Source of the DNA: Gemmatimonadaceae bacterium
GTDB lineage: Bacteria; Gemmatimonadota; Gemmatimonadetes; Gemmatimonadales; Gemmatimonadaceae
Reading direction: 5' to 3'
Length of the DNA stretch: 64,000 nt
NCBI GenBank assembly: GCA_036496605.1
Contig: DASXKV010000002.1
Coordinates: forward strand, 1-64,000
The notes beneath the pieces were generated by a model that was not told where the DNA came from, made no database searches, and worked only from the letters and a program-made list of their open reading frames with translations. Of the stretch, positions 34,681-39,141 are shown in pieces (position 1 is the stretch's first letter; each line of letters begins with the position of its first letter). The position numbers and the translations under genes are program-made.

Positions 34681-36900
34681 CTACCTCACTCTCAGCACGT
34701 CCTCGACCGGCCCCGCATCTCCATTCCTCAACAGGTGCTCGATCTCACGCAGCGCTTCGCGCTCGCGCGGCCACTGGAAGCGCTCGAGCGCATCGACGAC
34801 GCTGAGCCATTCGGCGCGTTGGTGTTCGCTGCCTAACGTGAGCGTCGCCGGCTCGTCGACGAAGGCGGCGAAGACCACCGCGAGTTGCACGGTGTGCGAG
34901 CGATGGAGATAGAACGGCTGCACGGTGACGTTATACAGCCGAGCGACGTCGAGCCCCGTCTCCTCGCGGAGCTCGCGAACGGCGGCGTCTTCAGGTTCCT
35001 CGCCTTGCTCGATGTGGCCATGCACGGACTCCCACGCCGTTGGGCATCGAGTGTCGAGCGCACGTTGAAGGACGAGCACGCGCCAACCATCGCGCCGGGG
35101 ACGAATGACGTACACGTCGATGGTGCCGATCTCGAGTCGAGACACGCGGGGTTCGCCGAGTCGCGGGGACGATGACTGCCGCTGCGGGAGATAACGCAGT
35201 GCCGGCTCGTCGTCTACCGGGCCAGTGGCTGTGAGTAGGTCAGGAGCTTCCGCCGCCGGCGGCTGGGCAACGCGAATCAATTCCTCCTTCGTGGTGTCGC
35301 CTGTGCGAACGCGAGCCATCCCGGACTGCCAGAGCGATTGCATGCCGTCTCGTCGAGCGGCTTCGGCGATTCGCTCCGCTGGCTCTCCGGCGGCCACCTG
35401 TCGCTCGAACTCGGGCGTCGCGATGAGAACCTCGACGATTGCGAGCCGGCCATGGTAGCCGCCGCCACCGCACTGGGGGCAACCGATCGTTGGATTCGGG
35501 GCGCACTTCGCGCACACGCGCCTCAACAGTCGTTGCGCGAGCACACCTTTTACGGCGGTCGCGATCTTGTAGGGTGCGACGCCGATGTCGATCAGACGCG
35601 TGACGGCGGTCGCGGCGTCGTTGGTGTGCAGCGTCGAGAGGACAAGGTGTCCTGTGAGCGAGGCTTGAATCGCAATCTCGGCCGTCTCGCGGTCGCGAAT
35701 CTCACCGATGAGCAGTACGTCCGGGTCCTGACGCATGATCGAGCGCAGCGCCGCGGCGAACGTCAGGCCGGCGCGTTCGCGCACCTGCACCTGGACGATG
35801 CCGGCCAGGCGGTATTCGATTGGATCCTCGACCGTGACGATGTTCACACCGCGCCGCTTCAAAAGGCGGAGTGCGGCGTACAGAGTCGTTGTCTTGCCCG
35901 AACCCGTTGGACCGGTAACGAGGAGCAGTCCCTCGCGCGCTTGCAACAATCGCTCGATACGCGCGAGCTCGTCGCGCGCGAATCCGATTGATTCGAGGCT
36001 CCGAACCGCTGTGCGACCATCGAGGATACGAATTACGATCTTCTCGCCATGCGCGGCAGGCAGACTCGAGATGCGCAGGTCCACGGCGACGCCATCGACT
36101 GCAACGCGCGCGCGGCCATCCTGCGGCCGCAAGCGATCGGCGATATCGAGACCAGAGATGATCTTGATGCGCGACGCCAGCGCTGACGCGAGCGACCGCG
36201 GCAGCCGGCGTGCCACGCGAATGACGCCGTCGACGCGATGCCTGACGATGATCACTTCCTCCTCGGGTTCGATATGGATGTCGCTCGCACGCTCGCCGAT
36301 GCCGGCCCCGAGCAGCTCGTCGACGAGTCGCGAGATCGCCTGGTTGTCGTCCGTGAGCACCGCCTCCTGTTCGTAACGCTCGGGCTCCGCGGCAAGGAGC
36401 TGCACGTCGACGTGTCGATGCGTCTCCGGTTCGAGCGACTGCTCGGAGGACTCGAACTCCGCGTTCCCGTAGATCGCGTCGATACCCGCCGCGATGACGT
36501 TGGGCGATGCCAGGACAAATCGAATCGGGCGGCCCGCAGCGAAACCGAGGGCGCGCTCACAGTCGACGTCGCATGGATTCGACGTCGCGACGACAAGCGT
36601 ATCGTCCTCGATGGTCAGCGGCAGCACGCCGAACTGTCTCGCCCATCGTTCCGGCACAAGCTCGAGCGCTTGCGTGCTCACGCGTCGCAGGTCGGCGATC
36701 GGAGCGTGAAAGTGTCTCGCGATCTCGAGGAGAAGCTCGTTCTCGGACAGCAGTCCACGCTCGACGATCAGCTCCCAGATGCTTTCCGCAGTCTCGTTCT
36801 CGAGCAGCTCGACTACGTCTACGCCGAGACGTTTCGACACGGCGGGGACAAGCCAACGATCGCGCGCTGCGACCGTCGAAGTTGGTGAGCTGGCTGACAT
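34681..36900 (-). CDS. GspE/PilB assembly ATPase fused to a C-terminal Nudix hydrolase
   Basis: This 739-residue protein carries two unrelated enzymes in one uninterrupted frame. Residues 1-545 are a secretion or pilus assembly ATPase: MshEN-like N-domain, Walker A GPTGSGKT (330-337), Asp box VTVEDPIEY, Walker B LLIGEIRDRET, His box TLHTND, and zinc motif CAKC...CPQC (463-477). After a linker (about 546-590), residues 591-720 form a Nudix domain. Its perfect Nudix box (GX5EX7REUXEEXGU) runs from Gly628 to Leu650. Nudix enzymes hydrolyse nucleoside diphosphates linked to X. There is no Met between the domains, and an in-frame GTG near residue 586 has no ribosome site, so fusion is the best reading. 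Pairing with the prepilin peptidase at 5150 supports the ATPase role. Confidence 0.93.
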   Translation of the reverse strand: MSASSPTSTVAARDRWLVPAVSKRLGVDVVELLENETAESIWELIVERGLLSENELLLEIARHFHAPIADLRRVSTQALELVPERWARQFGVLPLTIEDDTLVVATSNPCDVDCERALGFAAGRPIRFVLASPNVIAAGIDAIYGNAEFESSEQSLEPETHRHVDVQLLAAEPERYEQEAVLTDDNQAISRLVDELLGAGIGERASDIHIEPEEEVIIVRHRVDGVIRVARRLPRSLASALASRIKIISGLDIADRLRPQDGRARVAVDGVAVDLRISSLPAAHGEKIVIRILDGRTAVRSLESIGFARDELARIERLLQAREGLLLVTGPTGSGKTTTLYAALRLLKRRGVNIVTVEDPIEYRLAGIVQVQVRERAGLTFAAALRSIMRQDPDVLLIGEIRDRETAEIAIQASLTGHLVLSTLHTNDAATAVTRLIDIGVAPYKIATAVKGVLAQRLLRRVCAKCAPNPTIGCPQCGGGGYHGRLAIVEVLIATPEFERQVAAGEPAERIAEAARRDGMQSLWQSGMARVRTGDTTKEELIRVAQPPAAEAPDLLTATGPVDDEPALRYLPQRQSSSPRLGEPRVSRLEIGTIDVYVIRPRRDGWRVLVLQRALDTRCPTAWESVHGHIEQGEEPEDAAVRELREETGLDVARLYNVTVQPFYLHRSHTVQLAVVFAAFVDEPATLTLGSEHQRAEWLSVVDALERFQWPREREALREIEHLLRNGDAGPVEDVLRVR

Positions 36901-36978: not shown

Positions 36979-39141
36979 CTAGAGAACACTCCAGAACTCC
37001 GGATTGACGTCGAAGGCGAAGAGCCAGCGTCCCGTTCGGAGGCCGCGCGACACGTCGAAGCGAACCAGCTCGAAGAACGTCAGCAGACCCGCGCCGAGCG
37101 CGGTGTAGCCGCCAGGAGCGGTCGTCAACAGCTGTCCGTCGCGCTGAACCGTGGCTCGGCGGCCGGCGATGCCGGCGAACTCAACATACGGAGCGAACGT
37201 CGCCGACGCCGGAATCCTTCCGAAGCGGCCAAGCGGAACCGCGATGAACGGAATCGGCGATCGCCACTCGAGACGCTGGCTCCACCCACCGCGCCCCACC
37301 AGTTGATGAAAATCGTAACCTGGTGCGCTCACCGGTCCGCCGAGGTAGAAGAGCTCCTGCGAGGGAATGACGTCGTGCTGGCCACCAACGGCACCGGCAA
37401 TGGTGTGGAGTACCAGGCGCTGGCTGCCGAAGGGCCGCTCGAGGTCGGCGACGAGCGAGCCGCGCAGCGTCGTGTAGGTCAGCGGGCAGGCATCGAAGCC
37501 AGAGCAGGGTGCGGCAGAGTCACCGTCGGCCTTGAGCGCTCGCAGCTCGACGAGCGTGCGGAGCTCGGTCCCAAAAACCCAGAGCGATGTCGGCCGCTCG
37601 CGGCGAATCGTCATTCGCGCATAACGAGACGATGGGACACCGACGAGGCCGAAGAAATTCCCCGTGACAGGGGCGTCGTGAATCGCGAGCGTCGTCGGGC
37701 GCTCGATGGCCACTTCGACCGTCCATGCGGGCTCTCCCGCCGGCGCATTCTGCAGGGTGAGGCCACCGCCCTCTATCCCATACGGATCGGAGTAATCGCT
37801 ACCAAACTCCTGGGCGGCGATGCTGTTTACCGCGCGCGAACGTTCGGGCTCCTCGCCCAAGTCACGAAAGTCGCGCTGGCCGAATGCGCGGATCGAAAGT
37901 CCCGCACCGTTCTGCCATTCGAGGCGCGCTTGCCATTTGACAACCTGGTCATCGATTCCATAACGCAAGCGACCAGCTACGCTCACACCGCCGCCAATGC
38001 CTTGCGTGAGTCCGCCACCGAGTGCGAGCCCCTCGACGCGATCGACGCGCGCAAAATCGGATACTCCGCGAGCCGACAGCGCCAGCGTCCGCGCTCGCTG
38101 CAGCGCGCGTTGTCGTACGAGAGCGCGCGCCTCCTCCTGAACGCGACGCACGTCTGCGTCGGTCACTGCGCGAACGTCTGGCGGGAGCGAATCGAGCACC
38201 CGTGGCGTTGACCACGCGTGGCGCTGCTGCTCGGACGCCGGCGCTTGAACGATTTCCGGACCGCCGAAGATGCTGTACGGAACGCCTTTGTTGATCTGAT
38301 AGTCGCCAATTTCCCAACGTCCGCGGATGATGCCTCGCACGGGATAGTCGAGCCACGTGCCAGTGCGACGAATCTCGATCTCCTGGCGCGACGGAAGCCA
38401 GAAACGCGTCCCGACGAGGCGGTTCTCGAGCACGATCGAGACGTCCTCCAGCTGCTTGTCGAGGAGCGCGGCACGCGTGAAGCTGAGCGCCATACGGACG
38501 ACTTGTCCCTCGGTCCGATCGATGTAGACCGCACCGACGACGCGTGGCTGCCGGTCATCCTTGGGGCGCACGCCGACTTCGTACACGTTGACGGTTCGTC
38601 CGGGCAGCTGGATGCGCAAGCTGTCTTTGATCGCGAAGTCGTAAAGCTCGAGGCCCGCCGGCGAGAGCGGGTGCGGGACGTCGCGCACTTCATCTCCTTC
38701 GCCAAGCCGGATGATGTTTGGAAAGTTGTTCTGGACGATGCCGAGGTGGTCGCGGTGATAGGCGATGTCCGTCGGCAGGAGCAACGTGTCTCGGCGTCCG
38801 ACAATTCGCTGCTTGCTGAGACCGGGCGCGCGCCAGTAGACTTCCAGCGCCAGCTCATCAGCCTTGACGATTCGCGGCGGCTCGGTGAAGCCCTGTCCGA
38901 CCTGCGCGAGAAAAGTGAGATAGCCGTGGGCGTCGGCACGATAGTCGGTAAGGCCGGTGTCGGCGAGTTGCGCCGCGCGAAGTCGTGTGGCAAGCTCCAC
39001 GAGCGCTCGCGTCGTTGAATCGTTCCAAACCAATTGCGCGACCGTCACCCGAGGGGCGCTCAATGCGATTAGCATCGCAGCGACGCGCACCGCGATGGGA
39101 ACAATCACCCTCGATGGTTTTTTCGGTGTCAAACGCAGCAT
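36979..39141 (-). CDS. Outer-membrane protein with Omp85-like C-terminal barrel
   Basis: The 720-residue protein has a signal peptide ending in VTVAQ (about residue 36). A soluble N-terminal region follows (about 40-340) with mixed strands. The long C-terminal region has alternating strands typical of a beta-barrel, including FFLGG-like FYLGGPVSAPGYDFH and RLEWRSPIPF. These resemble the BamA/TamA surface-antigen domain. It has no recognisable POTRA repeats. It ends in FWSVL rather than the usual terminal Phe. Function unknown; it may display or export an enzyme or lipid. It is divergent from trpE with 57 bp between. Confidence 0.65.
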   Translation of the reverse strand: MLRLTPKKPSRVIVPIAVRVAAMLIALSAPRVTVAQLVWNDSTTRALVELATRLRAAQLADTGLTDYRADAHGYLTFLAQVGQGFTEPPRIVKADELALEVYWRAPGLSKQRIVGRRDTLLLPTDIAYHRDHLGIVQNNFPNIIRLGEGDEVRDVPHPLSPAGLELYDFAIKDSLRIQLPGRTVNVYEVGVRPKDDRQPRVVGAVYIDRTEGQVVRMALSFTRAALLDKQLEDVSIVLENRLVGTRFWLPSRQEIEIRRTGTWLDYPVRGIIRGRWEIGDYQINKGVPYSIFGGPEIVQAPASEQQRHAWSTPRVLDSLPPDVRAVTDADVRRVQEEARALVRQRALQRARTLALSARGVSDFARVDRVEGLALGGGLTQGIGGGVSVAGRLRYGIDDQVVKWQARLEWQNGAGLSIRAFGQRDFRDLGEEPERSRAVNSIAAQEFGSDYSDPYGIEGGGLTLQNAPAGEPAWTVEVAIERPTTLAIHDAPVTGNFFGLVGVPSSRYARMTIRRERPTSLWVFGTELRTLVELRALKADGDSAAPCSGFDACPLTYTTLRGSLVADLERPFGSQRLVLHTIAGAVGGQHDVIPSQELFYLGGPVSAPGYDFHQLVGRGGWSQRLEWRSPIPFIAVPLGRFGRIPASATFAPYVEFAGIAGRRATVQRDGQLLTTAPGGYTALGAGLLTFFELVRFDVSRGLRTGRWLFAFDVNPEFWSVL

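Follow-up and report, generated by a model that had tools for sequence, protein, structure and literature searches.

The closest described relatives of the protein reported here are, for one half, the PilB and GspE ATPases and, for the other, Ap4A hydrolases of the NUDT2 type and E. coli NudB. Nudix proteins are "house-cleaning" enzymes, and in the known Nudix fusions, NrtR and NadM-Nudix, the partners belong to NAD metabolism. The protein examined here resembles those fusions in joining a Nudix domain and a second module in one chain, but its partner is a motor ATPase, and we know of no other Nudix protein with such a partner. MshEN domains have been described in association with phospho-receiver (REC) domains, among others (PMC5013675). 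Because of that precedent, the MshEN-T2SSE-REC arrangement of the protein's orthologues, which is also the ancestral one, is not new in kind. The protein itself differs from the described MshEN-REC proteins in lacking the REC domain, having a Nudix domain instead, and lacking the MshEN motifs.

The window, a 64,000-nucleotide stretch of a Gemmatimonadaceae genome, carries the gene on the minus strand (34681..36900), the strand of all features described below. Read from 36900 to 34681, it starts with ATG and encodes 739 amino acids with no internal stops. A sequence-only reading of this DNA had proposed an uninterrupted frame for a GspE/PilB-type ATPase and a Nudix hydrolase and had suggested a domain search; the frame check and Pfam confirmed a single open reading frame with both domains complete, in the order MshEN (residues 73-148; 36457..36684; PF05157, 3.6e-17), T2SSE (residues 184-543; 35272..36351; PF00437, 6e-120), and NUDIX (residues 596-718; 34747..35115; PF00293, 3.6e-18). 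The motifs listed in that reading are also present. The Walker A sequence GPTGSGKT lies exactly at residues 330-337 (35890..35913) and is invariant in 28 fused proteins. The zinc cysteines, CxxC at 463-466 and again at 474-477, form a shortened tetracysteine motif, CxxC-x7-CxxC (35470..35514), of which C463, C474, and C477 are invariant in fused proteins. The Nudix box runs from G628 to L650 (GHIEQGEEPEDAAVRELREETGL; 34951..35019).

In a structure model of the fused protein the N-terminus, the ATPase, and the Nudix domain are ordered, and residues 551-585 (35146..35250), which hold the position of the REC domain in relatives, are disordered (pLDDT 33-38). Within the window's genus the ATPase has a dN/dS ratio of 0.10-0.11 and the Nudix domain one of 0.07-0.12, whereas the linker reaches 0.44-0.74. 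Both domains are under purifying selection, and the linker is relaxed or free to vary.

The ATPase half has the T2SSE domain, intact Walker A, and catalytic segments of a GspE/PilB-type ATPase. It shares with PilB and GspE the fold, the conserved GEIRDRET and LHTND segments, and the zinc cysteines, and its best PDB matches are PilF, PilB, and GspE (E values down to 7e-42). However, because its full-length scores fall below both equivalog cut-offs (505.6 versus 630.25 bits for GspE; 495 versus 675.65 bits for PilB), the ATPase half is, as judged from sequence, a member of the superfamily that is neither a GspE nor a PilB equivalog. It further differs from PilB and GspE in its shortened zinc insert, its C-terminal Nudix domain, and its location outside any pil or gsp operon, with neither a platform protein (PilC/GspF) nor a secretin encoded beside it. 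The only PilC in the genome is encoded elsewhere (C33), beside PilB and PilT, and the only secretin at C51; a second type II secretion system or pilus machine was therefore rejected. The fused ATPase is thus an orphan. With only one PilC in the genome, the ATPase must share that PilC if it drives a pilus-type machine. Its homology and the lack of a second PilC suggest that its role is most likely that of an accessory motor for the type IV pilus machine.

The MshEN-type N-terminal domain does not carry the c-di-GMP binding motifs found in PilB. A scan with the 24-residue motif defined in PMC5013675 (RLGxx..G....L..Q), in strict and relaxed forms, found none in the window protein and none in any orthologue tested, and the genome's own PilB, which served as the control, carries two in the relaxed form. 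Sensing of c-di-GMP through this domain was rejected on that basis.

The Nudix half has the Nudix fold and the G-x5-E-x7-REUxEExGU box of a Nudix hydrolase, and the G, E, RE, and EE positions of the box do not vary among 63 relatives, whether fused or separate. Modelled alone, the domain folds with a pLDDT of 95.5, and its nearest folds are Ap4A hydrolases and other Nudix enzymes. By profile, the solved proteins closest in sequence are Ap4A hydrolases (best at 2e-13) and, from E. coli, NudB (3e-11). Identity to NUDT2-type Ap4A hydrolases and NudB is only about 20-26% in fold alignments, however, and these enzymes are not joined to an ATPase; the score for NudB itself, 51.3 bits, is below the 103-bit cut-off of NCBIfam NF006961. 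Sequence and model together suggest that the Nudix half is most likely a general pyrophosphohydrolase of the Ap4A, NTP, or dihydroneopterin-triphosphate type. Six further Nudix matches were found in the same genome.

The phyletic survey that the sequence-only reading had proposed found the same single-frame fusion in 8 genera (g1, g2, g5, g7, g10, g11, g15, and g30) with 30 genomes between them, a count drawn from a search of 99 family genomes, a phylum sample, and the loci read. Full-length matches occurred in many of the 99 family genomes, and the nearest locus among named records was that of a Gemmatimonadota MAG (L037). Outside the family no fusion was found among the matches listed from 298 phylum genomes or among the best 80 loci of the genome collection, and no plasmid record showed coverage of 80% or more. 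A text search of the open literature gave no description of a GspE-Nudix protein, and the first reading had known of none. The ATPase-Nudix protein is a true, conserved domain combination, apparently undescribed as far as the open literature was searched. One further genome, G014 of genus g15, was counted beyond the 30. It has a rearranged copy (locus L141, C43:136000-151000) in which an ATPase without Nudix, in a frame of 567 amino acids, is followed by two partial ATPase copies with unrelated open reading frames between them, the last copy with an intact Nudix domain.

The same position in the genome is occupied differently in other relatives. The locus lies in a conserved block, ClpX-Lon-EngB-acetyltransferase-[Nudix/ATPase]-DUF5686-TrpE-FHA/GAF/cyclase, and the conserved synteny indicates that the fused and separate loci are orthologous. 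The co-directional upstream neighbour (36979..39141) has a weak DUF5686 match (31 bits, under the cut-off), is found in the same place in most relatives, and possibly encodes an outer-membrane barrel protein. Other genera of the family, and likewise two sister families, have an ATPase orthologue that runs on into a CheY-like REC domain (for example, Response_reg at 3e-30 in the tail of L033), and 45 of 46 REC-bearing orthologues keep the phosphorylation-site residues (D, D, T/S, K). Pfam found no C-terminal REC in the window protein, which is thus not an ATPase-REC protein. Most of the family, and part of the sister families, have a separate Nudix gene after the ATPase on the same strand, with its core 11-205 nt past the ATPase stop. 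The sequence-only reading, in which GspE-type proteins normally end after the zinc motif and C-terminal helices, missed both the REC domain that is usual at the C-terminus of the orthologues and the adjoining separate Nudix gene that is the state of most relatives. It thus did not see that the motor had earlier been joined to a signalling domain, which the Nudix lineage then lost. An in-between state, a separate Nudix gene after an ATPase with no recognizable REC, was also found (L142, L147, L148, L154, L155, genus g14). A REC remnant in the g14 tails is not claimed; the match reached 8.1 bits in one sequence, with an HHalign probability of 31%.

Two other features of these ATPases were observed. 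Between the ATPase and REC domains there is a short motif like FELVDD or FQLVDE, possibly a binding motif, which some tails without REC have kept (tails examined include L033, L036, L124, L030, L142, and L155). Several phylum genomes have a second, diverged ATPase-REC paralogue elsewhere (L150, L151, L152, L153, L202).

Each part of the fusion also occurs alone, an argument for a separate task of the Nudix enzyme. Close Nudix relatives (53-72% identity) remain in 24 of the 31 family genomes without a strong match to the ATPase orthologue, and each of the 16 loci read from such genomes has an intact Nudix box. Two loci initially classed as ATPase-less (L247, L249) were each found to hold a piece of the ATPase. 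Where enough flanking sequence was available, the Nudix gene of ATPase-less loci was mostly between EngB and TrpE (L239-L242, L245, L246, L252, L254); some of these loci have no detectable DUF5686 neighbour either. In L244, which has no strong ATPase match, TrpE and DUF5686 are still beside the Nudix gene, and in L243 the Nudix gene stands without any other gene of the block. Conversely, several genomes of sister family f2 have the ATPase-REC gene with no Nudix gene found nearby. Genera in which the ATPase was lost still have an intact Nudix gene at the same spot, so the Nudix enzyme can do without the ATPase.

When the tree of ATPase cores is rooted with the sister families, a single clade (SH-aLRT 90) holds every fused gene and nearly all genes without REC. 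Within it there were at least four changes between fused and separate states, and placing all fused genes in a single clade was rejected (AU test, p = 3.4e-5). Hence the genes were either joined repeatedly or, once joined, split again in part of the lineages; one fusion with later re-splitting could account for the pattern.

The reading that best fits these observations is a fusion of operon neighbours after loss of the REC domain, leaving two independent enzymes on a disordered linker, to which we assign a probability of about 0.7. The comparison makes the origin of the gene clear. At the level of the order, the ancestral first gene encoded an orphan ATPase of the GspE/PilB type that ended in an intact REC domain, and the next gene in the operon a stand-alone Nudix pyrophosphohydrolase. 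The REC domain was lost or decayed in the window's clade, and in-frame joining of the two neighbours, with a disordered linker between them, made one frame of ATPase and Nudix. Each of the joined halves would still work alone, the Nudix domain being only tethered to the ATPase, and cross-talk between the two is most likely absent. One observation speaks against simple tethering: the fused state is kept in 8 genera that are not one clade, which could mean that there is some benefit in keeping the parts together.

A rival reading is a regulatory fusion. The Nudix domain might sense or clear a nucleotide signal, for example Ap4A, at the motor and might so have taken over from the lost REC domain in controlling it. 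It is in keeping with this possibility that the Nudix domain holds a position earlier occupied by a signalling domain, that its active site is fully conserved, that 8 genera keep the fusion, and that Ap4A hydrolases are among its closest folds. However, an intact stand-alone Nudix remains where the ATPase was lost, separate Nudix genes stand beside ATPases that still bear REC, and the linker is disordered and unconserved; we therefore consider a regulatory fusion unlikely. A type IV pilus-type motor in which a working Nudix domain has replaced the phospho-receiver, and in which the motor-bound enzyme tunes pilus activity by hydrolysing an alarmone, Ap4A for instance, is rather improbable. The sequence-only reading had offered both sensing or removal of a nucleotide signal near the motor and an accidental fusion of two enzymes sharing a transcript. 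The latter fits the comparative data best, since the two genes are operon neighbours that are joined in only some lineages and that each occur alone, and no supporting evidence was found for the former.

The fusion may also be partly nominal if the one frame yields two products, the full-length protein and a free Nudix enzyme started at the GTG of V586 (35143..35145), which coincides with the ancestral Nudix start codon. About 25 of 31 joined genes still have an ATG or GTG at the position of the old start or adjacent to it, despite the variable linker around it, and the N-terminally truncated ATPase piece in G014 retains an intact Nudix domain. The GTG in the window, however, has no clear Shine-Dalgarno sequence (duplex -2.1 versus a control mean of -2.4), the start codon was lost in genus g2, and GTG is a common valine codon at high G+C. 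The retained old starts mostly have no clear Shine-Dalgarno sequence, but separate Nudix genes often have none either. A second product of this kind seems doubtful. In genus g15, the sequences of all five species (L010-L013, L141) show, as judged by eye, an out-of-frame TAG or TAA at a distance of exactly 10 nt upstream of the old Nudix ATG. This triplet may be what is left of the stop codon that once ended the ATPase gene. That two genes were joined by an artefact is so improbable that it can be set aside: only the draft state of the genome (5.97 Mb, 70 contigs) points that way, whereas the same single frame, with both sides under purifying selection, in 30 genomes of 8 genera rules out the sequencing or assembly error hiding a stop and start (residues 545-590) that the first reading had named as a refutation.

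As a fusion of operon neighbours, the gene can be understood without invoking machinery of a new kind. The analysis has also brought to light an orphan ATPase-REC that is conserved in this order at one fixed locus, and on which no study was found in the literature. Should the fusion prove regulatory, pilus motors would be tied to the turnover of alarmones. Its history is visible in living relatives, which preserve intermediates on the path from a REC-bearing orphan ATPase with an adjacent Nudix gene through REC loss to fusion. The locus is therefore a good natural case of fusion between operon neighbours and a warning against inferring function from fusion alone.
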